Source: Zingiber officinale (taxonomy: Eukaryota; Streptophyta; Magnoliopsida; Zingiberales; Zingiberaceae). From it: 64,000 nt of DNA. Where the stretch lies: positions 55,460,722-55,524,721 of the forward strand of contig NC_056000.1 of NCBI RefSeq assembly GCF_018446385.1, written 5' to 3'. Made by a program: the position numbers and the translations under genes. Shown here piece after piece: positions 1 through 64,000 of this stretch (its first letter is position 1; each line of letters opens with the position of its first letter). A model generated the notes under the pieces. The model searched no databases. It was not told the origin of the DNA and saw only the letters and a program-made list of their open reading frames with translations.

Positions 1-229
1 GCACAAGTTGGCCGAGCGGGATGCGAAAATAATTACAAACCTCCAAAATAAAGGGATGGGTAGGAAACCTAAGGCCGCCCTGGAATTGGTCCAGAAAGAA
101 ATAAATGGTGCCGATCGGCGGGTCATGGGGCCGGTCAGACGGGTCGGCTACAACTATTTCATAGTCATCGGGAATCCCATACGTCCGAACAAGGCGCCAA
201 GCGCCCTCCTCATCAAATCGGCTCTCCAT
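1..229 (-). CDS. Gypsy antisense ORF, N-terminal part (putative gypsy-type transposon domain), runs off the window
   Basis: Read on the minus strand, an ATG at 229 opens a frame that stays open to the window edge (76 codons). It begins MESRFDEEGAWRLVRTYGIP and continues through DPPIGTIYFF, GLRFPTHPF and VCNYFRIPLGQ. The same protein start is found at 21001 (plus) and 57922 (minus), so this is the N-terminus of the plant domain annotated as putative gypsy-type transposon (PF04195-like, from memory). The frame lies antisense to the element, upstream of its polypurine tract and LTR at 921-1631. Unlike the copy at 57922 it has no stop in the visible part, so it could be the best-preserved copy here. 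Its biochemical function is unknown to me. Confidence 0.72.
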   Translation of the reverse strand, partial: MESRFDEEGAWRLVRTYGIPDDYEIVVADPSDRPHDPPIGTIYFFLDQFQGGLRFPTHPFILEVCNYFRIPLGQLV

Positions 230-920
230 AGTCAGGTACCAAGGGCCCTGAACTCCAGCAGCGGGTTCAGAGGAGCTTGCCATCTCGAAGGAGCAAAAAG
301 ACAGCGAGAAATCGAAGGAATGGGAGCAAAGAAGGTAGAACAAGTTGGGAGGGCTTTGTAAGGGGAGGGGAGAAGCTTACTGAGGGAAGGTAGACAGAAA
401 GGATCACCAAAGAGCCGAAGACCACCGAGAGGCGAAAGCTGGGACGGCCGGAATGATGCAGCAGCAGCGGACACCTTCGACTGAGAATACGGCGAAGACG
501 AGGGCTTTATACGAACGAGGCTGGTCGGCCTCGTCCGTTGGATGCAGGTCACGGAAGACGAAGTCATCATCTAGCCGTCCGTTTCGAAATAACCAGCGTC
601 CCATCGTACGGATCATCACCGCCACGCAAGAGGAGCCACGTGGCGCTCTGTCGCCAGGCACAATTAATGCGCCCATACCGCGCATGCTTCGACTTAATGA
701 AAAGGATTTGCGTGATTTTCGAGAAGATCTAGACAAGCAAACATCCATGTTGAGCGACAAGACAACCGGAATGAAGAGCCGAACGGCTGAATTTGGAGGA
801 AGGGTCGAACGGCCCCACTGACACTATAAGCGACGGAAAGGCGACGACCGCCCGCTCGGACACATAGTCCAGTCAGTCGGACTCACTGCCTCCTTCGACT
901 AGACTTGAAGGGAAGGCAAG
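230..920 (+). other. Gypsy element 3' internal region: leader of the antisense ORF and polypurine tract
   Basis: This stretch separates the antisense ORF start (229) from the LTR (921) and matches 57923-58619 in layout and in scattered sequence. Both contain the same tail, 'cagtcagtcggact' followed by 'tccttcgactagact'. The last bases (about 903-920, ACTTGAAGGGAAGGCAAG) are purine-rich and abut the LTR, as expected of a polypurine tract. No convincing protein is coded here. The region presumably holds the promoter and 5' leader of the antisense ORF. Confidence 0.6.
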
Positions 921-3250: not shown

Positions 3251-3619
3251 GCGAGAGCACGGCTGACACTGGTTCAAAAAAAGGCGTTTATTCCTTGGGC
3301 TACCACATGGGGTCGCCGCCACCGCCCTCTTTGCTTCATCTCGCTTCCTTCTCTTACGATCACCCCTAAACACACCTACCTTCTCATTAATTGGTTCCTC
3401 GATGGCGGGTCGCGTATTGTGTAGGTCGTCGACGAGATGGTGAGAAGGGGGGTTGTGATGAAGTTGTCCCAAATCTTTTCACTTTTTGGTTCGACTTTTT
3501 AAGCAGAGCGAAAGGGAGGCGGTAAGCTTACACCCCTGCGCCGAGCAACGTACGCTATATTTGCTCCCGCTTTGGTCCCGTCACCTCCGGTCGTCGTAAT
3601 CTACCACGCCGTCGTCGTG

Positions 3620-9600: not shown

Positions 9601-10755
9601 GTGTTAGTAGGTTATTTCTCTTACAATAGAATAAAGCCATTGTTGTCATTTGGAACCTTACCAATTATACCAAACTTTAAATGCCTTTCGATGGCTTGAC
9701 ATACAAGTTCTTGACAAATGTCTAAGCCGCTAAAGCCAGAAAGAATTGTCAATAATCTTATAATTGATCCAAAGTTTGGTTATATTGCAGATGAATGAAA
9801 GTGAGGAAACAAAACAAGATAATCAAAAGAAGTCTAGTGAACCAGAATTACAGTGTACATAACTTCATAGTTGACGATCCATATCATGTCTGGATGTGAT
9901 GCCTTTGCAATGTTAAATGTTTATTTCTATTAACTCATATTCTTCACTATCAGGATGGCACAAATGTGGCAGGCTATGCACGCTCATCACATTGCCCAGC
10001 TGAAGATAGTTGAGGATCTTAAAATCGTCGACCTTCCATGTGTGATGAAGGAGACGACTGAACATCATTTCAAACACACTTTGCAATTGCATGATATCGC
10101 AGAAGAGTGGCATTTGCAGTTTGGCAAACTTGTTAGCCATCAGAAAGAGTACATTGATGCTCTTAATAGTTGGTTGAAGTTAAACCTTATCCCAATCGAG
10201 AGCAGCTTGAAAGAGAAAGTATCTTCTCCGCAAAGACCAACTCATGCTCCAATCCAAGCTCTTCTTCACACATGGCACGAGCATCTTGAAAAACTGCCAG
10301 ACGAGTTGGCAAAGAATGCCATCCACAGCTTCTCAGTAGTCATAAAGACAATTTTGACTCTCCAACAGGAGGAGCTAAAGCAGAAAGACAAATGCAATGA
10401 AATCCACAAGGAGTATGTACGAAAGAGTCGGGCATTTGAGGATTGGGCCCAAAGGTATTCACAGAAGAGGATGGCATCCACAGTGGGTGAGACAGAAAGT
10501 GGAGAGGTAGCAAATCCAAAGGACCTTGTGGAGGAAAAGAAGTTAGTTGTGGAATCAGCTAAAAGTAGGTTTGATGATGAAATGGAGTCCCACAAAAGAC
10601 TGTGTAAGCAGGTGAGAGAGAAATCCGTTACGAGTCTGAAGACACATTTGCCTGAGCTTTTCCGCGCTATGTCAGACTTCGCGGATGCTTGTTCGAGGAT
10701 GTATGCTAGTTTGAAGATGATCACAGAGCACCAGGAGCAGCAGATAAGAAGCTAG
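3620..10755 (+). CDS. DUF630/DUF632 protein (NRG2 / REL2 family), 744 aa, four exons
   Basis: Exons 3620-4652, 5239-5414, 6902-7125 and 9954-10755 join in frame with GT/AG borders and give 2,235 nt (744 aa plus stop). The protein starts MGCAHSRVDNEE, the DUF630 signature (about residues 1-60); MGC is a classic N-myristoylation/palmitoylation start, so I prefer it over the in-frame ATG at 3572. Next come a proline-rich stretch, an acidic run (about 135-160), a second proline-rich stretch, then DUF632 from about residue 305 (LLKVLTDLDDLFLKAS, MRVITWNRSF, AGELMKIEYQRKV, LYPKLVELVEGMAQMW). The family includes Arabidopsis NRG2 (nitrate signalling) and rice REL2 (leaf rolling); which relative this is cannot be decided here. 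Often mis-annotated as 'bZIP', though no bZIP motif is visible. Intron 3 is 2.8 kb with a SINE relic. All exon frames are intact. Confidence 0.93.
8457..8563 (+). mobile_element. Relic of an Au-type SINE (3' part) in intron 3 of the DUF630/632 gene
   Basis: The order of segments follows the Au SINE body: CTTGCAAAATTTAAGGTAAG, then GCTTACAATAGACCCAATGG, then CACCGGCAAGAGCTTCATC and ACCGGGTTGTCCTTTTT. It aligns with the well-preserved copy at 14326-14490 but has many substitutions and no recognisable tRNA-related head. Read as an old, 5'-truncated or decayed insertion. Confidence 0.7.
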
Positions 10756-10978
10756 GCCAAAGTTTGTAGAGCTGAATACTCTACCTTGTATTTAAGGTTT
10801 CCTATGCTAAACTTTATAATTTGAGTGTTAATTTGCATGGGGGTATATTCTGTTATGTTAGTTCTTAGGCTGCATGATACTTGTTACAACTATGGGAACC
10901 TCTACAACTCTAATAATGAACTTTTCTTTTTAAACATTTAGCGACGTAATTTTTGAGAAGACACCACCACACTCTTTT
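10756..10978 (+). other. Probable 3' UTR of the DUF630/632 gene
   Basis: AT-rich sequence after the TAG stop. AATAAT at 10912-10917 is a candidate polyadenylation signal. The true end cannot be set from sequence alone. Confidence 0.4.
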
Positions 10979-11752
10979 AAGTGTTTATAGGATGATTGCT
11001 TTTCATTTTATAACTTATAAAGTTTTTTCTCTATTTTTTAAGCGGCTCTTTATTGAAAAGATAATTATTTGTCAATTCAGCTTTCTTCCACCTGATTTGT
11101 GGCAATTCAAAATTTAACAATAGTCAGTAGATAAGTTATTTTTTTAGCAACATCATGTTAATGAGCAGAGTCAAAAATTGTTTTTAAGTTTAAGCGATAC
11201 TTTATTGAAAAAATAATTACTTGTCAATCCAACTTTCTTCCACCTGATTTGTGGCAATTCAAAATTTAACAATAGTCAGTAGATTAGTTATTTTTTTAGC
11301 AACATCATGTTAATGAGCAGAGTCAAAAATTGTTTTTAAGTGTTTATAAGATGATTGTTTTTCATTTTATAACTTATAAAGTTTCTTCTCTATTTTTTAA
11401 GCGACACTTTATTGAAAAGATAAATACTTGTCAATCCAGCTTTCTTCCACCTGATTTGTGGCAATTCAAAAACTTAACAGTAGTCAGTAGATACAAGTTA
11501 TTTTTTTAGCAACATCATGTTAATGAGCGGAGTCAGAAATTGTTTTTAAGTGTTTATAAGATGATTGCTTTTCATTTTATAACTTATAAAGTTTCTTCTC
11601 TATTTTTTAAGCGACACTTTATTGAAAAGATAATTGCTTGTCAATCCAACTTTCTTCCACATGATTTGTGGTAATTCAAAAACTTAACAGTAGTCAGTAG
11701 ATACAAGTTATTTTTTTAGCAACATCATGTTAATGAGTAGTCAGAAATTGTT
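10979..11752. repeat. 210-bp tandem repeat, four copies, just downstream of the DUF630/632 gene
   Basis: Units start near 10979, 11187, 11340 and 11550. The marker GTGTTTAT(A/G)(A/G)GATGATTG recurs at 10981, 11341 and 11551, and TTAGCAACATCATGTTAATG recurs four times. Units 3 and 4 are spaced exactly 210 bp. Unit 2 lacks the first roughly 57 bp, so it is about 153 bp. Copies differ by few substitutions, so the amplification is fairly recent. No open frame or transposon end was found in the unit. Confidence 0.9.
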
Positions 11753-13480
11753 TTGTGTCCGGTTTCATGCCTAGCTCAACCATACTTAGGGATTGTCTTC
11801 TTAGTACGGTACGATAGTTGAGATATCGGGTATTATCATATAAGATTTTGAGATTGAAACTTGACACATTCGAGCATGTCTTCTCCTATATCTTAATCAT
11901 TTGCCTAATGATTAATAATCGTTCATGATTTATTTTTTTCGTATTAATCTAAAAATGAATGCACTAGGATATTAAGGGCGAGCAAATTTTCTATTTTTTT
12001 ACCCCATGAGTTGGTTCAACTAGCACACCTAGTCCTATTCAATTCACTCATTTTATTTCTCTAGATCAATTTTAATTTTGGAATAATTGCTTGTTAATAA
12101 ATATTATATTTCTTAAAAGTCAAATATACAATAAATATGGAATGAAACTTTTCACATTTCATTGATGATACCATCTAAAATTATTTTACATTAGAATTGA
12201 ATCATTAATGAAATTCATTCTCATTCCGTTTTATTCATCCAAATGCACCCTTACGTTAGTATCTAAATATGTTAATATTATGTATTTAATTTCAAAACTC
12301 ATGGCCTTAGCTTGTGTGTGTCATGTGGAAGAGTCAAACTTTAACCTAAGAAATTGTCCAACAACGTAATTCACACAAATTCGAAGAGCTCCCATACAAT
12401 CTAAGACATGAACTCTATTTCATGACATCCTAAAAAAAAATGAAAACAACATAAACATACCCTTCATTCGCTCGATGTTCTTGCTCACCTTGCAGGTTTG
12501 GACTACTGCATGATAGGCTCGCTCAAGGACTCCTCGCCCGGCAGGCCACAAAATAATGGAGAGGTTATCCTATAGGTTCCTCATCTCTCTTCTCTTCCTC
12601 TGCTAGCGCGCATACAACAAAAGAAGCTCTATTTTTTTTTTCTTTTTTTCATAAACATCACTTTCTCCCTCGTCTAGAGACAATTACTTTATGACCACAA
12701 CAAAATACAACAATCACAATAAGTTCTATTATTTTCACCATATAAAAGAATTAAAAAATCAACTTAGAAAGTCAAAACCTTAAAGTTAAAACATAATTAA
12801 GACACTAAACACTTTTAATGGCTATACTAGATTGAAAAAAAAATTGAACACAAGTATTGAGGAAATTTAAAAATCAAGATTAACCAATTGGTCAAAGCGA
12901 ACACAAGGAGCGTGCTTGACAAAATTCCCTTACAAAAAGATACATGGTAAAATGAGTAAAAAAGACATGAAAAATCAAGATTTGACCATTATTTTCAAGA
13001 CTAGAATACACACTTGCAATAAAGTATGAAATCATGCTTTGCACATTATATATTATGACAGGTTATCCCTTCTAAGCATTCAATAAAAGGTTGAAGAGAA
13101 ATTCTAAAACATAAATAACATTGATGAGTTAGAAGGTTTAAAAGTTAATCTAACCATATTCCACAGCAATTGAGAGTGGCAGCAAACATCCCAAGCCTTC
13201 CATCTTAGTATATTACCTAAAAAATTACTTTCCCTTCCACCTAATCATGAAATCTATTCAATTTCACAACAGAACTATACAAGTACTACAACCCATAACA
13301 CTGTCAACCATGATGGTGTTAGCATAGATCACTGCAAGAATTTCATGTCCTCGGACATCCTGTAAGTTTCATAAGTTTTAAGAGGAATAAGTTGTGTAAA
13401 TAAATTGATCTACATTTTTACTTATGAAAGCATGAATCATCTAATAAATACTCTGAAAGAAAATAAAAATTAGAAAAAAT
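11753..13480. other. AT-rich intergenic DNA between convergent genes, no gene seen
   Basis: The neighbouring genes face each other here. I find no conserved frame or transposon termini. A short GC-richer patch near 12470-12570 contains no recognisable feature. Confidence 0.45.
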
Positions 13481-20226: not shown

Positions 20227-20944
20227 CATGCCTCCCCTTCAAGTCTAGTCGAAGGAGGTTGTGGTCCGACTGCCTGAACTACTGCGTGAACAGATTCCAT
20301 CCCGATCGGCTTTCCTGCATGTGCGGACTGATCAGGCTGGGCCTGACCCTCGCCGATCAGCCTTTTGAAGGTGGTCGCTCGGTCATAAGCATGCTCCTTT
20401 GATCCGATCGGGCAAGCAAAGGCTTACACTTACTTTTTCCTCCGTCTGTCTCGGGCGGACACAGGCTGGCCTGACGTCACCCTAATTTCTCGGGAAGCGT
20501 GTAAATCCTTTTTATTAAGGTAGAACATGTTCCCATGCCAGCCTTAATTGTCGACCCATGGTAGCTCGCCACGTGTCACGCCCACAACCGCCGCACGCCT
20601 GACACGACAGGTATTGATGGCGACGTTTGGCGGTTTAAATTCAACGGTCGGATCTTCGTATAGGTTTTCACGACCTAGATCAGAAGGCTTTGGTCGACTG
20701 AGTATAGCGTCTATAAACCCGTAGCGTAGGCTTCTCGCCCGCATTTGCGTCTTCCTCCACGTTTCCGGCGACCGCTGCTCCTCTGCCCCTTCGCTCCGAC
20801 GACCTCCTGCGTTTCTTTCTCGGCGATCTCTTCCCTTTTCAGTAAACTCTCTCCTTTGTCTCTGTTTTGCTTTGTTCTGGTGGCCTTCCAATGGTCTTTT
20901 CGCTCTTTCGATTGCATTTCTTCCACTGTTTCTTCTTTTTATCG
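20227..20944 (+). other. Gypsy internal region: leader of the antisense ORF
   Basis: Corresponds in position to 230-920 and 57923-58619 in the other copies: polypurine tract complement, then a stretch with TATA-like CTATAAACCC (20711-20720) and a pyrimidine-rich leader before the ATG at 21001. It is probably the promoter and 5' UTR of the antisense gene. No own protein is supported. Confidence 0.45.
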
Positions 20945-21000
20945 CAATGGCGAGCTCTTCGCAACCGTCGGCCACCATTTCCAGACTCTAGTACACCACC

Positions 21001-23221
21001 ATGGAGTCCCGGTTCGATGCGGGCGACGCGGAGGCTCTGAGAAATACCTTTGAACTCCCCCCTGGGCATGAGATCGTTCTACCTTCTCCGTCAGATCGAT
21101 CGAATAATCCCCTGATCGACACCATCTGTCTGTTCAGAGACTACTTCGTCACCGGTCTGCGATTCCCCATCCATCGTTTCATTGTCACCGTTTGTAAATA
21201 CTTCAGCATCTCCCTCCCCCAACTCGTACTAAACTCTTTCCGTCTATTGTGCGACGTCACTGTCTTGTTCTGGCTGCACGACATCCCTCTCACTTCTCGA
21301 GTCTTCCATTACTTCTATTACCCCAAGCAATCTGAGTCGGGGACCTTCCTTTTCCAGTCTCGGGTTTGCCTAGTTTTCTTTGACAAAATGTCCACCTCTA
21401 ATAAACACTGGAAAGAATACTTCTTTTTCATGCGCCTACCCGAGCGGCCAGAGTTCACGACCCGTTGGCAACTTGAAGTGGTGCCTCAGCTCGACCTGAA
21501 GTGGTATAAGAGCCGCTCGGACTATCTTCATTCGGCTTCCATGCTAGCCGATCAGAAATACCACATTCATAAGCTGTTGTTGGAGGGCGTATTGTACATC
21601 TTTGGCTTGAGTCCGATTCGCACCGGGCTGCCGACCAACCTAGGTATGCAACCACTTTATCCTTTCCCTTTGATACTAACTGATCTTTCTTTCTCTTCTA
21701 CAGCTGGAGTCATGATGCGAGCACGGATGGGCGGCAAAGCGAAACTTTCGAACGATGCGATTGAGGCAGTGGCCGCCGAAGAGCTGGCGAGCTGAGATCG
21801 GCAACCAGCCGGCTCTCATGAAGACCCACTCGGGTCGAGCGAGGATACGCCTGCAGAAGTAGGCGAAGGTGCGACCATCCGTACGCTGAGCGGAGGAGCT
21901 ACCTCGAGCTCCCAGCCTCAGACGGAGCAGCGCCCCATCCTTCCTGCAGAGGAACCCTCTGGATCGACCTCTTCTGACATGCCGTTGACCCGACGCAAGA
22001 GGCGCCGAGCGGAGCCGTCTTCACGCTCCGCTACCTCAGGTGAATGATTGGTCGAGCAGGTCGAGACTTCGACTCCAGCTCCGCTCCAAGTAACTGGGGA
22101 GGCATCCTCGTCTGACCAGATGCCTTCCTTGGTTGAGCTGCCGCTAGGTGCCGTGACCGCATCGCCCGTGGCTTTCATACCGTCACCACCAAAGCACGTA
22201 GCAGTCCAACAGTCTAGGATCCTACCGGCTTCTGGCGTAGCGGTCTCCTCACACTCGGCTCCGGGCGGCCAACGCTCTATCACGGCGATCCTCCACTTGC
22301 CAACGGAGGATTACAGCTAGCCGAGGGCCCAGTCCCGGACCCCTGAGCACCAGATCCTCATTCGGAGGCAGCTCGTCGAAGTCTGGCAGGACGCCCAGGC
22401 CCGCACGATGATACTTCCTCCCGACACCTTGGCCAACAATCATACCCAAATGGCCACCTGGATAAGTTCTTTACTGCAAATTCATGGTTTGCCTCCATTC
22501 AACCCTAACCTTTATTTGTTTACTTGCAGTATTGGGTGGAGAGTCTGGCCATGTGTCATAGGATGGCTTATTTGGAGGATGAGTTCAGGAAACTCAAGGT
22601 CTCGAGCGGCACCTCTTCCTCCCAAGGGCCATCCCTCTCCGATGTCAAGAAGTTGAAGGCCGATCTGGAGAAAAGTAACAAGCTCCTAGAGGCCGAGCGG
22701 AAAATGTCTACCAACCAGGAGGTGATGCTGGCCCAATACAAGAAACAAGTCGTCACCTTCGATAAGAAAATAGAGTCGGCCACCGCTCGAAAGTAATGGG
22801 TCGGGCCATCAATGACCTCGAGCTGAAGAACTAGGAGGTCAGGAAGCTCACCCAGAAGCTCAAGGAGGTTGAAGACTTCCTGGTGATCGAGCGGAACAGC
22901 TGTTCGGCTGAAGAAAAATCCCTCCGAGACCAAATAGCCGCCGCCAAAGATGAGCTGGAGGGCTCCCGGACGATCCTACTCATCTACCAGGATGCCGAAG
23001 GGAGCAGGTTTGAAACCATGAAGCAAGCCTACCTCCGTTCGGACGAGTTCTGCGACAGAATCACCGATCGGGCCCTTCGCCTTTTTGACTTGGCAATCGA
23101 AGGGACGATCGGCCAGCTTCACAAGGGGAGCCACTTGCTGACCGCTATGACGGGCAAAGACATAAGTCGGAATAAGCTTACAACCACTATGCCTGACAAC
23201 GTGTTAGACTATTTAGTGTGA
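21001..23221 (+). pseudogene. Gypsy antisense gene: transposon domain, linker and coiled coil, with two introns; broken
   Basis: Exon 1 (21001-21643) codes MESRFDAGDAEALRNTFELP, then PLIDTICLFRDYF, RVFHYFYYPKQSE, SNKHWKEYFFFMRLPERPEF and LLEGVLYIFGLSPIRTGLP: the 'putative gypsy type transposon' domain, about 214 residues. A donor at CTAG|GTATGC and an acceptor CTACAG|CTGGAG (21704) join it to AGVMMRARMG; this frame stops with TGA at 21793. A low-complexity Ser/Pro/Glu linker follows in shifted frames. A second acceptor near 22530 opens YWVESLAMCHRMAYLEDEF and a coiled coil rich in K, E and L, interrupted by TAA (about 22794) and continued to 23221. Same exon order as 55814-57922. The function is unknown; the copy is disabled. 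Confidence 0.75.
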
Positions 23222-23814
23222 AGCTGAGAGCTTGATCTGTATAATCCTTCTTTTGTAAGCTTTTCCAAGTATTAATGCATGCTCCGCCGTTCGACGCGAC
23301 TTTTTCTTATTGTTTTCACATTATGTTTTTCCTCTAATCGTGTTGTAGCCTCATAATTCTTTCGTTCAGCCGTGATTTTCATGCGCGTCCCCTCGACTCA
23401 CCTTTCTTTTTAAGTCGCTGGGCATGAAGTATTCTAGGGCGTTCTCTCGAACGAGCCCTTCATTTGCCCTTTTGGGGGCTTTCGTACAACCCTTGTCTAC
23501 CATCAGTCGTTCGACCGTCTGCGTAGTCTTGGGTCTGTCGTTGTCGCTTGTCTAGTTGATGGAAGCTTCGGATACGACGTCGCCGCTCGACGGTTCGAAG
23601 TAGGCTCGCGTTTAACGTCGTCGCTCAACGATTTGACGAAGACCCACATTTAGCGTCGCCGCTCGACAATTTTTTTATACTTGCACTCGGGTTTAAGGTC
23701 GCTGCTCGACCGTTGATGGAGACGCACTTAAAAGAGGTCTTTGCTTGTTTATTCAAACTTTTCCCTACACTCGGCAGATACATAGTAGCCACAAAATACA
23801 GGATTCACTTGCGC
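23222..23814. repeat. Decayed repeat-rich spacer between antisense ORF and integrase
   Basis: Degenerate units containing CGTCGCCGCTCGAC, GACGAAGACCCAC and TTTAGCGTCG recur at about 23575-23725, spaced roughly 50-60 bp. Position and composition (GTCGAGCGG on the other strand) match the 64-bp minisatellite at 54495-55465, so this looks like a diverged version of the same array. Confidence 0.5.
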
Positions 23815-24770
23815 ACCTCTTGTCCAGCCCTGTAGGGTTGCAGATAGTGCGCGCTCCAAGGCATCTCGAGCTGCCTCCCCTCTTCGTCCTCCAAATAATA
23901 GGCACCCGAACGGAGCCTCTGCATGACCTTGAATGGTCCTGCCCATGGTGCCTCGAGCTTGGCGACATCGCCGACCGACTTCACTTTCTTCCAGACGAGG
24001 TCGTCGACCTAGAAAGACCTCGGGATCATCCGCCGATTATAATTCTGCCTCATACATTGTCGGTAGGCTGTTAGCCGAACAACAGCATTTGCTCGTGCTT
24101 CATCCATCAAGTCGAGCTCCATTTGCCTCCATTCGGTGTTCCCTTCGTCGTAGTATTGCACTCGATCGGATTCTACTCCCACCTCCACTGGAATGATTGT
24201 TTCGTCGTCGTACACTAATTGAAATGAGGTTATGCAGGTCACCTCTTTCGGAGTCGTGCGAAGAGCCCATAGCACGCTGGGGAGCTCGTCGACCCAGCTG
24301 CCTCCCATGTGGTTGAGCCGAGCGCGCAAGACTCTGAGGATTTCTCGGTTGGTGACTTCCGCTTGCCCGTTGCCCTAGGGGCAGGCCACTGAGATGAAGC
24401 ACTGCTGGATACCATATCCCTTGCACCACCCCTTGAGCCTCCAGCCAGCGAATTGTCTTCCATTGTCTGAGACGAGCCGACAAGGGATGCCGAACCGGCA
24501 TATGATGTTCTGCCATACGAACTTTATGACCATCTGCTCAATTATTTTGGCTAGGGACTCGACCTCGACCCATTTGGAGAAGTAATCCACCGCAACGAGC
24601 AGGAACTTCCGCTGACCGACGGCCATGGGGAATTGTCTCTTGATGTCTATGTCCTATTGGTCGAACGGATAAGATATAGTGGAAACCTTCATTTCCTCCG
24701 TAAGCCGATATGAGAGGTTGTGATATTTTTGACAGGATACGCACGTGACCATCGTCCGAGCGACATCCTC
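23815..24770 (-). pseudogene. Ty3/gypsy integrase relic
   Basis: Minus-strand reading from about 24770: CVSCQKYHN (the CxxC half of the HHCC zinc finger), then AVDYFSKWVEVE (first catalytic Asp), LVSDNGRQF (second Asp), GNGQAEVTNREILRVLRARL (catalytic Glu), WVDELPSVLWALRTTPKE, and a C-terminal part ending AGQEVRK with a stop at 23815. At least three in-frame stops (after PFDQ, after SVACP and after RMIPRSF) break it, and the N-terminal half of the zinc finger is missing at the truncation point. The D,D,E residues are all still present. No chromodomain is seen, consistent with a non-chromovirus (Tat-like) lineage. Confidence 0.88.
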
Positions 24771-25084: not shown

Positions 25085-26938
25085 GTGACGACTAGCCATG
25101 GTCGGTCCCAAGCCCGAAAAAAGGAGGAGGGGTGCGTTAGGTTGCCAGCCAACGTTAAAACTATGATAAATATTCAATGAATGAATTTATTTAACCATTG
25201 TTCTAATACTAGGTTGTTCCTCAAGGAACGCGTTGCGGGGTCCAACTGTAACGTCTCGGCAAAAATCGCTATATCTCCAGAACTCGGGTGTAGTGCTAAA
25301 TATGCAAGAATTCGCGTTGCAAGGTCTGATTGTAACGTATCGACAAGGACCGCTACATCTCCATGAAAACTTGGGTGTAGTGTTAAATAGATAAGAGTTC
25401 TCATACAATAGGTTGGATAAGAACAAATATGATAGAAAAACTAATAATCTAAGATTTGGAACATGGAACATAGGAACCCTTACTGATAAATCAATGGAAG
25501 TAGTAGAAATGATGATTAGGAGAAGAATTAGTATTTTATGTGTACAAAAGATAAAATGGGTAGGAGAGAAGATAAGACTAATAGAGAATTTGAGTTTTAA
25601 GTTATGGTACACAAGAAAGATTAAAGCAAGAAATGGAATGAGTATTGTTGTATATAGTTCGTTAAAGGATGAGATTGTAGTAGTTAGAAAAGAGGATAGA
25701 ATTATAGTCCTTAAGATAATAGTGACGAAAGAAACTAGGAACATAATTAGTGTATATGCACCGCAAGTAGGATTAGATGAAGCTACCAAATCAAGGTTTG
25801 AGATGACTTGGATGAAATATTACAAAACATTCTGCCAAATAAAATAATTTTAATAGGAGGTGATCTAAATGGATATGTTGGAGTGAAAAATGAGGAATAT
25901 AAGAAGGTATATAGGGGTTGTGGGTTTAGAACGAGAAATGAGGAAGGGAAAACTATATTAGATTTTGCTATAGCATATGATCTCATATTAGCTAATACAT
26001 TTTTTTTTAAAAAAATAGAAGAACACTTAATTACGTTAAAAAATGAGAATAATAAATTGTAAATTAACTTTCTTATGATTAGGAAGAAGGATAGAAAGAT
26101 TTGTAAAGATTGCAAAGTCATCCCTGAGAAAACTTAACTACTCAACATATGTTAGTAGTATTGGATATACGCCTCAAGCATAACATCAATAGAAATAAAA
26201 TATATACGACTCTTGAATTAAGTGGTGGAAGTTAAAGGATGGGAAATAAAATATATTCAAGGAGAAGGTAGGAGTACAAGTATTAGGTGAAATATACGGT
26301 GATTCTAATATAATATAGGATAAGATGGTATCAAAGTTGAAAATAGTAGCTAAGAGTATACTCGATAAATCAAATGGGCATGCACCACTAAGTAAGGAAT
26401 CTTGGTAGTGGAATGAGAAAGTATAAGAGAAAGTGAAGGAAAAATGAATAGCTTAAGGAATTATATATTTGTAAGAATGAGGAAAACCTAAAAAAATATA
26501 TAATAGCCAGGAAAGAAGCTAAGAGAGCAGTGAATGAAGCAAAGAATGAAACTTTTGAACGATTAAATAAAAAATTGATACAAAAGAAGGGGAAAGAAAC
26601 ATTTATATAATACCTAATGTGAGAGAAAGGAAGACAATAGATCTTATCCAAATAAAATGTATTAAAGATAAATGTAATAGGAGTATTAGTAAATGAGGAA
26701 GAAATAAAAAAGCAGTGAAAGATGTATTTTCATCAACTTTTTAATGAAGATTTAGGTGATCAACTTAACTTAGATAATTTAAGTAGATCAAATGAGCATA
26801 AAAATTTAAATTTTTATCGTAGAGTTTAAACTTCAGAAGTAGAATAAGCTTTAAATGGGATGCACAATGGAAAAGCTATTGGACCATATGATATTCTGAT
26901 AGAGGTATAGAAGTGCCTAGGAAAATAAGGTATTGAAT
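25085..26938 (+). mobile_element. RTE-type LINE, 5' half (endonuclease and start of reverse transcriptase), degenerate
   Basis: Begins with the GGTCGGTCCCAAGCCCG leader common before plant RTE-like LINEs. The frame at 25413-25847 gives LRFGTWNIGTLTDKSMEVVE, ISVYAPQVG; the next frame (25808-26062) gives ILIGGDLNGYVG: an endonuclease/exonuclease/phosphatase domain split by a frameshift. These proteins are often mislabelled 'craniofacial development protein 2-like'. The usual QETKW motif reads QKIKW, so the catalytic Glu is lost. The RT region follows with many stops. The element is interrupted at 26938 and resumes at 41224. Confidence 0.85.
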
Positions 26939-50105: not shown

Positions 50106-50218
50106 GTCGGTCTATGTGTAATTCGAGGGGCCCAGTTACAAGATAGGTTGGGTTAGGGACGAAGGGTGTCTCAAGACTGGACCTGGGTGTCAAGTAATAG
50201 CTCGGAGACCAAGATTAC

Positions 50219-50915
50219 AGGTCGGGATGTGCCAGCTAAGGATACAGGTCAAGGCTTATAGCCTTGTGGCGCAGGTTAATGAACAAAAGCGTACAGGTCG
50301 GGATGTACTAGTCAAGGACACAGGTCAGGGCTTATAGCCTTGTGGCGCAGGTCAATGAACAAAAGCGTACAGGTCGGGATATACCAGCCAAGGATACAGG
50401 TCAGGGCTTATAGCCTTGTGGCGCAGGTTAATGAACAAAAGCGTACAGGTTGGGATGTTCCAGCCAAGGACACAGGTCAGGGCTTATAGCCTTGTGGCGC
50501 GGGTCAATGAACAAAAGCATACAGGTCGGGATGTGTCAACCAAGGATACAAGTCAGGGCTTATAGCCTTGTGGTGCAGGTCAATGAACAAAAGCGTACAG
50601 GTCGAGATGTGCCAACCAAGGACACAAGTCAGGGCTTATAGCCTTGTGGCACAGGTCAATGAACAAAAGCGTATAGGTCGGGATATACCAGCCAAGGATA
50701 TAGGTCAAGACTTATAGCCATGTGGCACAGGTCAATGGACAAAAGCGTACAGGTCGAGATGTACCAGCCAAGGATACAGGTCAAGGCCTATAACCTTGTG
50801 TCACAGGTCAATGGGGAAAAGCGTACAGGTTGAGATGTACCAACCAAAGATACAGGTCAGGGTCTATAGTCTTGTGTCGCAGGTCAATGGACAAAAGCAT
50901 ACAGGTCGGGACTCA
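50219..50915. repeat. 76-bp tandem repeat in the solo LTR, about nine units
   Basis: The unit start GGT(C/T)GGGAT recurs at 50296, 50372 and 50448, exactly 76 bp apart. Each unit carries CCAAGGATACAGGTCAGG, CTTATAGCCTTGTGG and CAATGAACAAAAGCGTAC. Later copies decay, and related shorter pieces run on to about 51330. Confidence 0.9.
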
Positions 50916-52294: not shown

Positions 52295-52331
<37 letters not shown>

Positions 52332-52351
52332 GTGGTAAGAGCCCGGGACCC
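52270..52351. repeat. 23-bp perfect inverted repeat of the LTR 5' end around an (AT)n loop
   Basis: 52270-52292 is the exact reverse complement of 52329-52351, which is the start of LTR A. The loop is ATCA followed by about 16 AT repeats. Because ATCA follows the left arm, that arm is an inverted copy of the complete LTR terminus (TGATCCGGTGG onward), while LTR A itself has lost its TGAT to the microsatellite. Confidence 0.9.
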
Positions 52352-53031
52352 CCTAACGAGGGGTCAATGCCACGTGGAGGTCAGAGGGCCAGGTGGTCCG
52401 TCGAAGAAGGGTGAGTCGACCGGACGCATGAAAAAAGGGCAGGCCGATCGGCCTGCCCGTAAACGTCTGATAGTGAAAGACGCCCTGACAGGGGTCGGGA
52501 AGGCCTAAGAGAAGGCAGGACATAATGGGCGCTCCGGCCGGCCGGCGTAGGGAATTAAAGCCGTCCGGACGACGCTTTTCGCGTCGGCCGTCCGGACGGA
52601 CATCCCGGCCGGGCGGTGGATGAAGGATAGGAACATCTTCTGACAGCCGTCAAGTCCTATGGCTAGGCCAACAACAAAGTGTTATGTTGTCCCATCGAAG
52701 ACGTGATTGAACTGTAGCAGTATGGTGTCAGGTAAGCTCTCTGACAGGTACATACCGAGGTATGGGCTGCGGACACGTATGCGCCTCGGTGGACGTGCAT
52801 TAGTTCTTTCACCGCTCTATATAAAGAGCCTCTTACTTCGCCGGAGGTACGCATTCTACAATCTTTGGAGCCACCTTTTGCTGTCCGCTTACCTGACTTG
52901 AGCGTCGGAGGGTCGCCGCCGGGAACTCCAGGATCGCCGGAGATTCGTACGACCAGTCGAAGACCTACACCCTCGACTAGAAGTGCGCCACGTGCCCAGC
53001 GTCCTTTGGTTCGGCGATTCGGACAGGATCA
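52329..53031 (+). mobile_element. Gypsy LTR A
   Basis: Lacks the TGAT start (replaced by an AT repeat), ends TTCGGACAGGATCA. TATATAAA at 52818-52825; shared block CTTGAGCGTCGGAGG at 52897-52911. Compared with LTR B it has two gaps of several tens of bases: one near 52500 (LTR B has TTCCGACGCTTAATGAAATA and more) and one near 52931 (LTR B has CCCTTCCCGGCCCGACTTC). Confidence 0.9.
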
Positions 53032-54494: not shown

Positions 54495-55465
54495 GCCGTA
54501 AAGGCCGTCGAGCTCCGACGTTAAAAATCGAGAGACGAGCCGGCGTCTATAAACGTCCGAGCGAAAGACCGTCGAGCTCCGACGTTAAATATCGAGAGAC
54601 GAGCCGGCGTCTATAAACGTCCGAGCGGAAGACCGTCAAGCTCCGACGTTAAATATCGAGAGACGAGCCGGCGTCTAAGCGTCCGGCGGAAGACCGTCGA
54701 GCTCAGACGTTAAATATCGAGACGAGCCGGCGTCTATAAGCGTCGGCGGAAGGCCGTCGAGCTCAGGCGTTAAATATCGAGAGGCGAGCGGCGTCTATAA
54801 GCGTCCGGCGGAGACCGTCGACCTCGAGCGTTAAATATCGAGGAGCGGCGCGTCTATAAGCGTCGGCGGAAGACCGTCGAAGCTCACGTTAAATATCGAG
54901 GCGAGGCATCTATAAATGTCCGAGCGGAAGACCGTCGAGCTCCGACGTTAAATATCGAGAGACGAGCCGGCGTCTATAAACGTCCGAGCGGAAGACCGTC
55001 GAGCTCCGACGTTAAATATTGAGAGACGAGCGGCGTCTATAAGCGTCCGGCGGAAGACCGTCGAGCTCAGGCGTTAAATATCGAGACAAGCGGTGTCATA
55101 AGCGTCGGCGGAAGGCCGTCGAGCTCCGAGCGTTAAATATCGAGAGGCGAGCCGGCGTCTATAAGCCGTCGGCGGAAGACCGTCGAGCCGACGTTAAATA
55201 TCGAGACGAGCGTGTCTATAAAGCGCCGAAGAAGACCGTCGAGCTCGGCGTTAAATATCGACGAGCGGCGTATAAGCGTCCGGCGGAAGGCGTCGAGCTC
55301 AGGCGTTAAATATTGAGAGGCGGTGTCTATAAGCGTCGGCGAAGGCCGTCGAGCTCCGACGTTAAATATCGAGAGACGAGCCGGCGTCTATAAACGTCCG
55401 ACCGGAAGACTGTCGAGCTCCGACGTTAAATATCGAGGGACGAGCCGGCATCTATAAAAGTCAGA
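54495..55465 (+). repeat. 64-bp minisatellite, gypsy unit 1, about 16 copies
   Basis: The consensus unit holds GTCCGAGCGGAAGACCGTCG, AGCTCCGACGTTAAATATCG, AGAGACGAGCCGGCGTCTAT and AAAC (64 bp). Outer copies are nearly perfect. Inner copies (about 54680-55340) carry many one- to four-base deletions that shorten them to 55-60 bp. Confidence 0.92.
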
Positions 55466-55813: not shown

Positions 55814-57922
55814 TCACGCGTCAAAGTCAAAAAGAGTGTCGGGGATGGCGTCCATCACGGTCGCGAGGTCCTCGGGGGGGATGTCCAGCTCGGCGGGCAG
55901 GTGGCCCTTGGTCTTCAGGTAATCCACCGCCGCCTTGATCGCTTCTTCGAAAGTGAGGGATATCTTGTCGGTAAACTTCTCTCCAAAATCTTCCGAGCGG
56001 AGATACGCCTTCCTCACTTCGTCAGAACGGGCCGACTCCCCCTCTTGATATTCTTTGAGCGTGGCGTGGGCAGCGTCGCTGGTGGCTTGGAGATCCTTCA
56101 AGTCTCCATCAAATCTTTGGAGATCGGCCGAGCGGCTCTCCTTCTCGGTAGCCAGCAGAGCATCCAGATCCTTGATGCGTTGCTCCAGCCCTCGGATCTC
56201 CACCTTCATCCGGTCCATATCTTCGATGGCCAGGAGCTTCCGGGTGGTCGCCGTCTTGATCTCCTTATCTCGTTGCTTGATCATCGCCCCAAGCCGAACG
56301 ACCTTGCTCGCCAGATCGGAAGCCCTTTTCCGTTCGGCTTCCAGCGATTTTTTGGCCTTCTCCAGAGCGGCCGTCGATTGTTGATTGTCCCCAGCGGCTT
56401 TAAGTTTTCTCAGTTCATCCTCTAGCTCGGCCAACCGATTGCTAATGGCAATCTGCTCCACCCAGTTCTACGAGCAAAGGGGAATAGGTTAACAACTTAA
56501 TTCAATTACACGAATAAAGAAAAAGAGCATACCCCGGTGGCCTGTTGGAGGTTGCTGTCGCCGAGCTGCCCGGGAGTCATCGCTTTTATGCGGCGCCGAG
56601 CATCCTCCCAAGCTTTTGCAAGAGGTCCCGTCAAGGTGATCTGCTACTCGGAGACCACTGGCCGATCAGCAGCAGCCATGTATGCCTTTGAGGGGAGGCG
56701 CAGAACGGTCTTAATTAAATTCGAGCCGCTCGGCTCACTCTGAGAGGCATCGGCCTTACCGGTGGACGAGGAGGGAAGGTCGCCTAAACGCCTGATACGG
56801 CGCAGAGTTCTAGAAGGGCTGGATGGCGGCACCTCAAAGCTGGCCCTCGGAGAGCCATGTGGGGTCGGAGTACTCTCGAGGGAAACCGTCCCGGACAACA
56901 TCGGAGCATCCGCGCCCCGCTCGGGCGGTGGCTCATCAAGTGGAGTAGAGGCGGCGCTTTCGAGTGACTAGCGGAACATCGTCGGCCGAGCGGCCCTCCA
57001 CCTCGGTTTGGGTAGGAGGTTCTGTGTCGCCCGCTGCCTCCTCGTGGGAGGTAGTAGCTGCCACGGCTTCAGGGGCATTCTGAGTCCCCTCACTTGCTTC
57101 GCCGGTCGGATCAGTTAGACCAAGGCCTCGCTCGGCGACCTCTTTGTTCGTCACCGCCTCAATCTGAGCGGCTTTCAGTTTGAGCTTCTCGGTCGCCTTG
57201 GCGTGCCACATGACTTCAGCTGCAGAAGCAAAAAATAAATCAGTTAGAACAAAACAAACGAGAAGATAAGGGAACTTACTCATACTGCAGGGCAGATCGG
57301 CTGGGGTAGAGGACAAGCCAAATATGTGCATTACTCCCGGAAGGAGCAGCTTGTCAATATGATAACGCTGACCAACCAGCCGTTCGGCTGCATGAAGGTA
57401 GGCCGCGTCACCTCTAAATTTGCCGAGCTCCGGTTGCGCCGGCATCGCCGTCTGCCACTTGGTACGAAAAGTCGGCCGTTCGGGAAAACGTATATAGAAA
57501 AAATGCTCCTTCCAATGTTTGTTGGAGCTCGGCATGCCATCGAAGAGGACGAAACCTATCCTAGATTGAAAAACAAAAGTTCCCCACTCGGCCTGCTTGG
57601 GATAGTAGAAGTAGTGGAAAATTTTTGGGTCTAAGGGGATGCCGTTCAGTTTGAACAAAACTATTACTCCGCTCAGCAGCCTGATAGAGTTGGAAACTAC
57701 TTGGCCGAGCGGAATGCGGAAGTAATTGCAGACTTGCAGGAAAAATTCATGGGGTGGGAAGCGTAGTCCGGCCAGAAATTGGTCTCGGAAAAAAAGAACT
57801 GTGCCGATCAACGGTTCATGAGGCCGATCGGCTGGTGTGGCTTATACTATTTGGTGGTCGGAAGGAATGTCGTAAGTCCGAGCGAGACGCAACGCGTCCT
57901 CCTCGTCAAAACGACTTTCCAT
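55814..57922 (-). pseudogene. Gypsy antisense gene, unit 1: transposon domain, linker, coiled coil; broken
   Basis: Exon 1 starts at ATG 57922 (MESRFDEEDALRLARTYDIP), has TAA at codon 27 (57842-57844), then runs open: HEPLIGTVLFFRDQFLAGLR, VCNYFRIPLGQVVSNSIRLL, IFHYFYYPKQAEWGTFVFQS, SNKHWKEHFFYIRFPERPTF, LLPGVMHIFGLSSTPADLP. An intron of about 60 bp (donor near 57281, acceptor CTTCTGCAG at about 57223) leads to EVMWHAKATEKLKLKAAQIE and a Glu/Ala/Thr-rich linker that shifts frame near 56940. A second intron (about 56534-56470) leads to WVEQIAISNRLAELEDELRK and a coiled coil of about 210 residues ending PDTLFDFDA at 55814. Product role unknown. It is antisense to gag, and the layout matches 21001-23221. 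Confidence 0.78.
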
Positions 57923-58619
57923 GGTCGAATACCAAAGACCCGGAGCACCGCCGTTGACTGCGAAGTACTAGTCATGATCGAAAGACAGGAATGCGGGATA
58001 AAAGGGGAAGGTTCAAGCAAGGAATGGAGGAAAACCGACTGAAGAAAACGATTAACAGCAAGAAGAAAACGTTGGGAACGAGAAAGAGGGTCTTACGAGC
58101 AAGAAAGATGATCGACGGGGGCCTGGGGTTGCCGAAGAGTTGAGGGGCGAGGTCGCCGGAGAAAAAAACGGGCAGAGGAGCGCCGGAGGAGGAGGAAGCA
58201 ACAATGCGGCGGAAACGGAGTCGTGGGCTTTATATCACCGCTCGGGAGCAACCTCCACCGTCCGATCCAGGTCGTTGATAACGAGGTCATCATCCAGCCG
58301 TTCATTTCAAACGGCGGCTGTCCCATCGGAAGTGACGCCACCGCCATACGCTGACAAACACACGATCGCCACGTGTTAGCAGGATATTGGCCGCATTTAA
58401 TGAGCTCCCCTTACCGTGCGCAGCGCACGTGATGGGTAGTAGGGGAGAGCATCGGACATGGATTCCAAGAAAACACAAGGCATGGGCAAGATACCGCCGA
58501 ACGGATGAGCATCCTTATGCCTGGCCGAGCGGCCCCATACAACAATCATTGCTCAGTCAGATCGGCAGTACAGTCAGTCGGACTTCGCCTCCTTCGACTA
58601 GACTCGAGGGGGAGGCAAG
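57923..58619 (+). other. Gypsy unit 1 3' internal region: antisense leader and polypurine tract
   Basis: Contains the presumed promoter and leader of the antisense gene and ends in the purine-rich ACTCGAGGGGGAGGCAAG (58602-58619) touching LTR B. The ORF at 58387-58860 crosses into the LTR and has no homology, so it is not called a gene. Confidence 0.55.
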
Positions 58620-59404
58620 TGATCTGGTGGTAAGAGCCCGGGACCCCCTAACGAGGGGTCAATGCCACGTGGAGGTCAGAGGGCCAGGTGGTCCGTCGAA
58701 GAAGGGTGAGCCGACCGGACGCATGAAAAAAGGGCAGGCCGATCGGCCTGCCCGTAAACGTCTGATAGTGAAAGACGCCCTGACAGGGGTCGGGGTTCCG
58801 ACGCTTAATGAAATAGTAAATAATGACCGAGCGAAAGGCCTAAGAGAAGGCAGGACATAATGGGCGCTCCGGCCGGCCGGCCGGCTCAGGGAATTAAAGC
58901 CGTCCGGACGACGCTTTTCGCGTCGGCCGTCCGGACAGACATCCCGGCCGGGCGGTGGATGAAGGATAGGAACATATTCTGACAGCCGTCAAGTCCTATG
59001 GCTAGGCCATACTCTAAGTCTGACAACAAGGTGTTCTGTTGTCCCATCGAAGACGTGATTGAACTGTAGCAGTATGGTGTCAGGTAAGCTCTCTGACAGG
59101 TACATACCGAGGTATGGGCTGCGGACACGTATGCGCCTCGGTGGACGTGCATTAGTTCTTTCACCGCTCTATATAAAGAGCCTCTTACTTCGCCGGAGGT
59201 ACGCATTCTACAATCTTTGGAGCCACCTTTTGCTGTCCGCTTACCTGACTTGAGCGTCGGAGGGTCGCCGCCGGGAACCCCTTCCCGGCCCGACTTCTGT
59301 GCAGGATCGCCGGAGATTCGTACGACCAGTCGAAGACCTACACCCTCGACTAGAAGTGCGCCACGTGCCCAGCGTCCTTTGGTTCGGCGATTCGGACAGG
59401 ATCA
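58620..59404 (+). mobile_element. Gypsy LTR B, 785 bp (shared by both units)
   Basis: Starts TGATCTGGTGGTAAGAGC after the polypurine tract and ends TTCGGACAGGATCA. TATATAAA at 59170-59177; CTTGAGCGTCGGAGG at 59249-59263. It is the most complete LTR of this family in the window. It serves as 3' LTR of unit 1 and 5' LTR of unit 2. Confidence 0.95.
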
Positions 59405-60857: not shown

Positions 60858-61843
60858 AAGGCCGTCGAGCTCCGACGTTAAAAATCGAGAGACGAGCCGG
60901 CGTCTATAAACGTCCGAGCGGAAGACCGTCGAGCTCCGACGTTAAATATCGAGAGACGAGCCGGCGTCTATAAACGTCCGAGCGGAAGACCGTCAAGCTC
61001 CGACGTTAAATATCGAGAGACGAGCCGGCGTCTATAAACGTCCGAGCGGAAGACCGTCGAGCTCCGACGTTAAATATCGAGAGACGAGCCGGCGTCTATA
61101 AACGTCCGAGCGGAAGGCCGTCGAGCTCCGACGTTAAATATCGAGACGAGCGGCGTTATAAGCGTCCGAAGGAAGACCGTCGACCCGACGTTAAATATCG
61201 AGACGAGCGGCGTCTATAAATGTCCGAGGGGAAGACCGTCGAGCTCCGGCGTTAAATATCGAGAGACGAGCCGCGCTTATAAATGTCCGAAGAAGACCGT
61301 CGAGCTCGGCGTTAAATATCAAGAGGCGGGCGTCTATAAACGTCCGAAGGAAGACCGCCGAGCTCGACGTTAAATATCGAGAGCGAGCCGCGGCTTATAA
61401 AGCGTCCGGCGGAAGACCGTCGAGCTCCTACGTTATATCGAGAGACAAGCCGGTGTCTATAAGCGTCCGAAGCGAAGACCGCCGAGCTCACGCAATATCG
61501 AGACGAGCCGCGCTTATAAACGTCCGAGCGGAAGACCGTCGAGCTTCGACGTTAAATATCGAGAGACGAGCCGGCGTCTATAAACGTCCGAGCGGAAGAC
61601 CGTCGAGCTCCGACGTTAAATATCGAGAGACGAGCCGGCGTCTATAAACGTCCGAGCGGAAGGCCGTCGAGCTCCGACGTTAAATATCGAGAGACGAGCC
61701 GGTGTCTATAAACGTCCGAGCGGAAGGCCGTCGAGCTCCGACGTTAAATATCGAGAGACGAGCCGGCGTCTATAAACGTCCGAGCGGAAGACTGTCGAGC
61801 TCCGACGTTAAATATCGAGGGACGAGCCGGCATCTATAAAAGT
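60858..61843 (+). repeat. 64-bp minisatellite, gypsy unit 2, about 16 copies
   Basis: Same unit as 54495-55465. The first five and last five copies are nearly perfect; copies at about 61140-61520 are shortened by small deletions. The pattern of decayed copies differs from unit 1. Confidence 0.92.
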
Positions 61844-62192
61844 CAGAGCGGCTCGCATGCGAAAACCTAGCGAAAACCCCTTTGAGGTAAGGCTCGAAGC
61901 AAAAGATGGTTAATCGGAATTAAAAATGCTAGCAAGTGAACGAGTAACGTTCATGCGCCGAGCGGCTGCTCAGTCGCATAATGAGACATTAAAGACAATC
62001 GACTTGTCTGACGGAGCGTAGTGCCGAGAGGAAGGGTTTTAAAGAACACTTCAGTCGTGACGAGAGAAAAATTTCTTGCCAAAACAGAAGTTGAAGGAAC
62101 AGAAGAGATTATCTATTATACACTGGGTGAACCAAAAAAGTTGGGCCGAACGGCTGGAATACAAAAAAGTTCATACACAGAAAAAACGCTTA

Positions 62193-64000
62193 TCACGCGT
62201 CAAAGTCAAAAAGAGTGTCGGGATGGCGTCCATCACGGTCGCGAGGTCCTCGGGGGGGGTGGCCCTTGGTCTTCAGGTAATCCACCGCCGCCTTGATCGC
62301 TTCTTCGAAAGTGAGGGATATCTTGTCGGTAAACTTCTCTCCAAAATCTTCCGAGCGGAGATACGCCTTGCTCACTTCGTCAGAACGGGCCGACTCCCCC
62401 TCTTGATATTCTTTGAGCGTGGCGTGGGCAGCGTCGCTGGTGGCTTGGAGATCCTTCAAGTCTCCATCAAATCTTTGGAGATCGGCCGAGCGGCTCTCCT
62501 TCTCGGTAGCCAGCAGAGCATCCAGATCCTTGATGCGTTGCTCCAGCCCTCGGATCTCCACCTTCATCCGGTCCATATCTTCGATGGCCTGGAGCTTCCG
62601 GGTGGTCGCCGTCTTGATCTCCTTATCTCGTTGCTTGATCATCGCCTCAAGCCGAACGACCTTGCTCGCCAGATCAGAAGCCCTTTTCCGTTCGGCTTCC
62701 AGCGATTTTTTGGCCTTCTCCAGAGCGGCCGTCGATTGTTGATTGTCCCCGGCGGCTTTAAGTTTTCTCAGTTCATCCTCCAGCTCGGCCAACCGATTGC
62801 TAATGGCAATCTGCTCCACCCAGTTCTACGAGCAAAGGGGAATAGGTTAACAACTTAATTCAATTACACGAATAAAGAAAAAGAGCATACCCCGGTGGCC
62901 TGTTGGAGGTTGCTGTCGCCGAGCTGCCCGGGAGTCATCGCTTTTATGCGGCGCCGAGCATCCTCCCAAGCTTTTGCAAGAGGTCCCGTCAAGGTGATCT
63001 GCTACTCGAAGACCACTGGCCGATCAGCAGCAGCCATGTATGCCTTTGAGGGGAGGCGCAGAACGGTCTTAATTAAATTCGAGCCGCTCGGCTCGCTCTG
63101 AGAGGCATCGGCCTTACCGGTGGACGAGGAGGGAAGGTCGCCCAAACGCCTGATACGGCACAGAGTTCTAGAAGGGCTGGATGGCGGCACCTCAAAGCTG
63201 GCCCTCGGAGAGCCATGTGGGGTCGGAGTACTCTTGAGGGAAACCGTCCCGGACAACATCGGAGCATCCGCGCCCCGCTCGGGCGGTGGCTCATCAAGTG
63301 GAGTAGAGGCGGCGCTTTCGAGTGACTAGCGGAACATCGTAACATCGTCGGCCGAGCGGCCCTCCACCTCGGTTTGGGTAGGAGGTTCTGTGTCGCCCGC
63401 TGCCTCCTCGTGGGAGGTAGTAGCTGCCACGGCTTCAGGGGCATTCTGAGTCCCCTCACTTGCTTCGCCGGTCGGATCAGTTAGACCAAGGCCTCGCTCG
63501 GCGACCTCTTTGTTCGTCACCGCCTCAATCTGAGCGGCTTTCAACTTGAGCTTCTCAGTCGCCTTATGACTTCAGCTGCAGAAGCAAAAATAAATCAGTT
63601 AGAACAAAACAAACGAGAAGATAAGGAACTTACTCATACCGCAGGCGATCAGGGGTGAGAGGACAAGCCAAATATGCATTACTCCGAAGGAGCAAGACAT
63701 CAATATGATAACGTGACCAACCACCGTTCCGGTGCATGAAGGTAGGTCACCCTCTAAATTTGCCGAGCTCGGCAGCGTATCGCCCCGCCACTTGGTACGA
63801 AAAGTTGGCCGTTCGGGAAAACGTATATAGAAAAAATGCTCCTTCCAATGTTTGTTGGAGCTCGGCATGCCATCGAAGAGGACGAAACCTATCCTAGATT
63901 GAAAAACAAAAGTTCCCCACTCGGCCTGCTTGGGATAGTAGAAGTAGTGGAAAATTTTTGGGTCTAAGGGGATGCCGTTCAGTTTGAACAAAACTATTAC
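62193..64000 (-). pseudogene. Gypsy antisense gene, unit 2, partial (start lies past the window)
   Basis: Coiled-coil exon (about 62828-62193) matches unit 1 with few changes. It lacks about 12 residues before the C-terminus: after YLKTKGH it runs PPRGPRDRDGR and a shifted tail, from a deletion of about 37 bp near 62257. The linker exon (63326-63544 and 63002-63259) and exon 1 (63599-63991, FHYFYYPKQAEWGTFVFQSR, SNKHWKEHFFYIRFPERPTF) follow. Between about 63560 and 63790 there are many small deletions relative to unit 1, which scramble the frame. Exon order matches the other copies. Confidence 0.72.

Follow-up and report, generated by a model that had tools for sequence, protein, structure and literature searches.

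The closest described counterparts of the locus analyzed here are found in Retand elements of the Ty3/gypsy group, where antisense ORFs encoding the TRP28 domain were reported in 97% of recently active clusters, and where Smc-type antisense ORFs and tandem arrays occupy the same region of the element (PMC11963269). DNA binding by TRP28 is, in the same paper, a program prediction. Transposase_28 was also reported in 23% of Retand elements and a plant mobile domain in 57% of Ogre elements (PMC6317226). The Ogre extra ORFs with this second domain (PF10536) offer a parallel, as they likewise carry an extra-ORF domain in a related gypsy lineage, and the host relatives of the plant mobile domain, MAIN and MAIL1, act in silencing (PMC6317226, PMC5418596). 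Another antisense gene, gene23 of the maize element Grande, is described as having its own promoter and encoding a nuclear protein (PMC7264820, PMC11963269). Outside retrotransposons, the VANC protein is coded by the element itself, binds short motifs that are tandemly repeated in the non-coding DNA of the element, and removes methylation (PMC5735166, PMC10398659). The role of the antisense ORFs is presented in print as unsettled (PMC7264820, PMC11963269), in agreement with a previous sequence-only reading of this DNA.

In the window, that is, the whole stretch of 64,000 nucleotides of Zingiber officinale DNA that was analyzed, the antisense gene is almost certainly the TRP28 accessory (extra) ORF of Retand/Tat-type Ty3/gypsy elements, as indicated by its PF04195 domain and its antisense position between pol and the 3' LTR. 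It is a known kind of gene, here better resolved with respect to its start, promoter, introns and copy count. As in the Retand ORFs, the domain, the antisense orientation, the position between pol and 3' LTR, the tandem repeats of the region and the nearby Smc-type (coiled-coil) ORFs occur together (PMC11963269). In contrast, TRP28 and Smc are ORF Finder ORFs in that paper, the word "intron" being absent from its text as available, whereas here they appear as exons of one three-exon gene; and its arrays are highly variable between families, whereas here a dyad core is common to the arrays of two diverged copies. The three-exon model suggests that surveys based only on ORFs may divide one gene into a "TRP28" ORF and a "Smc" ORF. 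The gene also resembles Grande gene23 by description, being antisense, beside the 3' LTR and equipped with a putative promoter of its own (PMC7264820). Neither a three-exon TRP28 gene with a coiled coil nor a conserved dyad core was found described in the parts of the literature searched, a scope which did not extend to the primary papers on Grande gene23 and on Silene Retand or to the 2011 survey of extra ORFs.

Copies, elements and gene anatomy

The copies of the gene and the landmarks of the elements that carry them were as follows.

20947-23221, plus strand: copy A gene, running opposite to a minus-strand integrase remnant
24378..24653, minus strand: integrase core (PF00665; Pfam, E = 1.8e-12) of the element carrying copy A
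20227..20240, minus strand: polypurine tract of copy A, with the 3' LTR edge at about 20226 and the LTR toward lower coordinates (from a three-way alignment)
57975-55814, minus strand: copy B gene, between two LTRs
52327..53031, plus strand: LTR left of copy B, with an AT repeat in place of its first bases
58620..59404, plus strand: LTR common to B and C, TGATC..GATCA
62193..64000, minus strand: copy C gene, a tandem duplicate of B with the middle LTR in common, cut by the window end
1..283, minus strand: copy D, the initial 94 codons of exon 1, open throughout and truncated at the window end; 3' LTR edge near 921

The PF04195 profile (Transposase_28, "TRP28") matched exon 1 of copy B with E = 4.7e-8 and 33.6 bits, exceeding the curated cut-off of 26.2, and copy A with E = 1e-3 and 19.7 bits, under this cut-off. 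Among the protein relatives, which include Zingiber officinale proteins, P0001, P0003, P0005 and P0008 exceed it. A plant mobile domain identity was rejected, PF10536 having no match in 10 protein scans with E up to 10, in which HMMER filters drop most weak matches. Copy A is antisense to pol, the integrase being on the minus strand, and sits between pol and the polypurine tract at the 3' LTR edge. Tandem repeats between pol and the 3' LTR, a trait of Retand, were found as arrays in B and C and as a four-site array in A. No reverse transcriptase on which the Retand grouping could be based was recognised in these elements, since A ends behind the integrase, B and C have no room for pol, and D is cut by the window end.

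The sequence-only reading had counted four copies. Three are independent (A, B with C, and D), because the copies at 55814-57922 and 62193-64000 are tandem duplicates with a common LTR. Exon 3 is 99.05% identical between B and C, and the LTRs are 98.7% identical, the pair around B (52327-53031 vs 58620-59404) showing 9 substitutions over 703 aligned sites. The left LTR of B is separated from the repeat arrays by only 0.7 kb, holding an ORF which we take to be gag-like and which had no Pfam match; pol is thus missing, and B and C are elements without pol.

Several other features of the window were recorded. The left LTR of B lacks its first bases, and across the AT repeat it is faced by a short inverted duplicate of the LTR end (52270-52345); this may reflect an unusual integration event or a second element that was rearranged. 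Exon 1 of copy C contains a cluster of small indels relative to B (63570-63800, minus strand; 7 gap events, 93.7% identity, the remainder being about 99% identical), which may be an assembly error. Long open frames of 248 and 265 aa run opposite exon 3 in B and C (55679-56425 and 62061-62858, plus strand), as a mirror ORF. Close behind the truncated pol of element A lies an ORF (25395-25847, plus strand) that presumably resembles a LINE endonuclease and had no credible Pfam match. Host gene exons with DUF630 and DUF632 domains are present at 3503-4741 and 9934-10752 (plus strand), and other tandem or nested repeats at 50135-51042 and 10927-11757, with spacings of 76 nt and 152/210 nt.

The order of the gene (domain, intron, linker, intron, coiled coil), beside the 3' LTR and antisense to the element, was borne out. 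The start had been placed at MESRFD; the true ATG lies 18 codons upstream (A 20947, B 57975, D 283). The reading frame of D is open from this ATG, which is also where the ginger relatives P0001 and P0003 begin; between it and MESRFD, the frame is interrupted by a stop in A and by a frameshift in B. The position just inside the 3' LTR, as previously described, corresponds to about 640-720 nt from the LTR edge. A polypurine tract and an LTR edge are common to A, B and D (edges at about 20226, 58620 and about 921), and a TATAAA lies 228-259 nt ahead of the ATG in all three. LTR and ATG are thus kept apart by a stretch of this length, carrying the putative promoter from which the gene would be transcribed, an arrangement also reported for Grande gene23 (PMC7264820).

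20712..20717, plus strand: copy A TATAAA, putative antisense promoter
58229..58234, minus strand: copy B TATAAA
506..511, minus strand: copy D TATAAA

The exons and introns of the two copies that could be followed to the end are given below.

20947..21643, plus strand: copy A exon 1, coding for an N-terminal leader and the TRP28 domain; in-frame stop before MESRFD
21644..21703, plus strand: copy A intron 1, 60 nt, GT..CTAACTGAT..ACAG
21704..22461, plus strand: copy A exon 2, Ser/Thr/Pro-rich linker with the basic run RRKRRR; three in-frame stops
22462..22529, plus strand: copy A intron 2, with AT in place of GT at the donor and an intact acceptor
22530..23221, plus strand: copy A exon 3, coding for the coiled coil and the C-terminal segment; interrupted by one frameshift and one stop
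57280..57975, minus strand: copy B exon 1, frameshift before MESRFD and one stop beyond
57220..57279, minus strand: copy B intron 1, 60 nt
56533..57219, minus strand: copy B exon 2, frameshift and one stop
56468..56532, minus strand: copy B intron 2, GTATGC..GTAG
55814..56467, minus strand: copy B exon 3, open; coiled coil

From the intron signals and the ginger gene models, the transcript is very probably spliced at both introns. Intron 1 has the same length in A and B, and its GT, CTAACTGAT and CAG are kept though synonymous sites are saturated. Judged by eye, it is cut at the same joint in four ginger gene models (P0003, P0005, P0009, P0012), whereas the joint lies elsewhere in P0004 and in P0013, a more distant protein. 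Four models contain both exon-2 and exon-3 sequence; for intron 2, the exact joint is seen in P0012, the acceptor alone in P0006, and neither of the two in P0004 and P0009, as judged by eye against the exons of B. The frame through intron 1 is open in A, B, P0001 and P0010, and P0002, P0007 and P0008 end at or close to CTAACTGA within this frame (by eye), so that intron 1 may optionally be retained as coding sequence. The premise of the previous reading, that an intron on the antisense strand is not lost when the sense RNA is reverse-transcribed, is sound as general knowledge.

Selection and decay of the copies

The protein was very likely under selection in the past of the family. Over 214 codons of exon 1, A and B differ at 42% of sites without a single indel, the differences falling 82/52/133 on the three codon positions, and pN/pS is 0.34 (95% 0.27-0.42) with a saturated pS of 0.85. 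Exon 3 is looser (A-B 0.55, 0.45-0.67), and over 76 codons D gives 0.22 against B and 0.41 against A. The five other frames contain 2-13 stops per copy with pN/pS of 0.47-1.58; only the frame of the antisense ORF is constrained without many stops. These pN/pS values (0.22-0.55 between the diverged copies) reflect the ancestry of the copies and not their present state.

In their present state, A and B are pseudogenes, each with stops and a frameshift, A having in addition the AT at its intron-2 donor. Every fully readable copy is thus a pseudogene, and D is open over its visible 94 codons. Retention of the gene in copies lacking pol had been taken as a sign of usefulness, a point that did not hold: the gene of the pol-less copy B is broken, a linker stop is present in both B and C and is therefore older than their duplication, and the exon 3 comparison of B with C (189 ungapped codons) yields 3 silent changes and 3 replacements, a count without statistical power. 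Both the broken state of A and B and this 3:3 ratio would fit a dead gene carried along passively by the element. Nevertheless, the pN/pS of 0.22-0.55 between diverged copies, as well as the published frequency of TRP28 in recently active Retand clusters (PMC11963269), make this very improbable.

The predicted protein and the dyad array

The predicted product has about 680-715 residues and consists of the TRP28 domain, a linker with a basic, NLS-like patch, and a coiled coil. The linker, previously called acidic, is only mildly so (net -6 over 251 positions in copy A) and contains a basic run. In a scan of 23 rows for a run of at least 3 K/R or a K-K/R-x-K/R pattern, the linker matched in winA, winB, P0003, P0005, P0006, P0009, P0010, P0012 and 11/11 Abeliophyllum proteins, and no linker match was found in P0004, in the cut winB piece or in winC as read. 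The run is thus present in 6/8 ginger-type proteins; the match of P0013 sits at the start of the linker. A cruder Fourier test over the whole coil segment, run first, was significant in one of five sequences (p = 0.004 for P0012, 0.089-0.156 for the other four). The coiled coil was supported by a windowed a/d heptad test: 0/500 shuffles reached the observed value for four sequences, two control segments were negative, and P0016, the one Abeliophyllum protein tested, gave p = 0.03.

P0001 is 92% identical to copy B over the queried part of exon 1. A third protein search returned 33 matches at E<=1, among them TRP28 proteins of Abeliophyllum, a eudicot, in which TRP28, basic run and helical segment follow each other in the same order as in ginger. 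The TRP28 similarity between ginger and Abeliophyllum spans about 146 residues in the aligned pair, vs 69 residues in the Pfam model. Homology of the C-terminal parts was rejected (3-column hhalign alignment; 12 comparisons in which 146-687 of 1000 shuffles scored as well in local alignment). The predicted fold had low confidence and no structural match, and thus supports no DNA-binding fold; sequence searches against solved structures gave one and three matches, every one with E>1.

Next to the 3' end of the gene, A and B/C carry repeat arrays with unlike unit lengths and one dyad core, CGTCG-N5-CGACG, which the sequence-only reading had not mentioned and which was found in addition to the features it listed.

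23573..23716, plus strand: copy A dyad array of four sites, with dyads at 23578-23592, 23616-23630, 23654-23668 and 23697-23711
54501..55457, minus strand: copy B dyad array, 64-nt units
60858..61851, minus strand: copy C dyad array, 64-nt units

The 64-nt tandem repeats of B and C lie between the 3' end of the gene and the gag-like ORF, and their core in gene orientation is TTTAACGTCGGAGCTCGACGGTCTT. In copy A, the sites recur every 38-43 nt in the corresponding interval that separates gene and pol, where Tandem Repeats Finder made no call. Exact GTCG-N5-CGAC occurs 18 times in the 64 kb, always in the arrays (A 3, B 6, C 9), vs 0.33 expected; with one mismatch allowed, CGTCG-N5-CGACG occurs 24 times, 23 of them in the arrays and one at 4102, vs 0.47 expected. 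With a matrix built from 27 B/C instances, the four sites of A rank 1, 2, 3 and 5 outside B/C; among 2000 first-order random sequences of the A region, 0.1% attained the best score and none the sum of the four sites. Reciprocally, behind the four sites of A from which a second matrix was made, the next 23 ranks are all B/C sites in identical orientation.

The distance from the stop codon to the first site is 352 nt in A (358 nt when measured to GTCG), 390 nt in B and 387 nt in C. The DNA between gene and array showed no alignment above chance (0.473 vs 0.451 for shuffles, 400-nt flanks), and the dyad core therefore looks to be under selection. B and C being duplicates and the array of D lying beyond the window, the core rests on two independent arrays. 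Two of the four dyads in A are imperfect owing, in each case, to a G-to-A change at a CpG; at one of the perfect sites, the two outer bases have changed jointly. The centre reads NNGCT in A as well as in the B/C arrays, so that the site is not fully symmetric. The three arrays have CpG o/e values of 2.03, 2.02 and 2.05, vs 0.82-1.31 elsewhere in the elements, a difference due in part to the motif itself. Further arrays of 56-nt repeats occur in B and C (53748-54371 and 60121-60728), and exact dyads with 5-nt arms and a 5-nt spacer are found 3 times in the 56-nt repeat stretch of B, vs 0.61 expected.

Putative function and alternative explanations

We hypothesize that a dedicated TATA promoter, situated between the 3' LTR and the ATG, drives transcription of the antisense TRP28 gene, that the transcript is spliced at two introns to encode a TRP28-linker-coiled coil protein, and that this protein would enter the nucleus by means of its NLS-like patch and dimerise by its coiled coil. 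The dimer would then recognise the CGTCG-N5-CGACG dyads arrayed between the 3' end of the gene and pol. Coiled-coil proteins are expected to dimerise, and dimers commonly read dyad sites; the dyads lie at a similar place beside the gene that codes for their putative reader. Binding of the dyads by the TRP28 protein is, on this basis, a real but still doubtful possibility, and the complete chain from the gene up to this binding is a tentative proposal. Against the proposal stand the small number of independent arrays (two), the low confidence of the predicted fold, the two imperfect dyads of A, the weak outcome of the first coil test, the broken state of every fully readable copy, the partly asymmetric centre NNGCT, an asymmetry which a pure homodimer site need not have, and the high variability of arrays between families in print (PMC11963269).

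A possible alternative, also a tentative one, is a nuclear accessory protein serving another step, for example LTR transcription, RNA export or the nuclear entry of the integration complex, while the array would serve a host factor or an insulator. The constraint on the protein has no demonstrated tie to the array, and retroviral accessory proteins offer a parallel (PMC7264820); this reading does not account for a core kept next to the gene at a similar distance, with flanks that otherwise cannot be aligned. Dyads could also be RNA hairpins (a packaging, 3'-end or stability signal), as each would allow a 5-bp stem and one site of A carries the paired outer change, or they could be a by-product of repeat slippage. 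Folding was no better than that of dinucleotide shuffles (z +1.35 and +1.58 in A, -0.90 and -0.94 in C, where 35-39 of 200 shuffles were equally good) and did not support the hairpins, and slippage leaves unexplained a core common to arrays with 38-43-nt and 64-nt spacing, which renders both improbable. Finally, the transcript rather than the protein could matter, by pairing with the sense RNA and feeding siRNA control, as raised in print (PMC7264820); in view of the codon-position constraint in the antisense frame and the intact reading frames of relatives, we regard this as quite improbable.

If the TRP28 protein does bind the dyads, it could keep the CpG-rich array and the element open to transcription in the manner of VANC, an anti-silencing role that is speculative and rather unlikely at present. 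VANC of the VANDAL transposons is similar in that an element protein is paired with a short motif in the element's own non-coding tandem repeats (PMC5735166, PMC10398659), a functional analogy for which no kinship is claimed. VANDAL is a DNA transposon, whereas a retrotransposon is concerned here; binding and demethylation by VANC were shown experimentally, whereas the present system is known from its sequence; and the targets of VANC diverge fast, whereas the dyad core is kept. A local decrease of CG methylation was reported in sunflower Retand, and also in several other lineages (PMC12844716). A two-part self-protection of Retand independent of VANC, in which a spliced antisense gene for a nuclear TRP28 dimer would be combined with a CpG-rich dyad array, bound so as to leave the element unsilenced, is an unlikely proposal when taken as a whole.

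The role of the antisense gene in this abundant lineage of plant retrotransposons is left open in print (PMC7264820, PMC11963269), and the dyad array provides a concrete candidate for its DNA target. With a conserved dyad array beside the gene, the question of its role thus becomes a direct test of binding and methylation.
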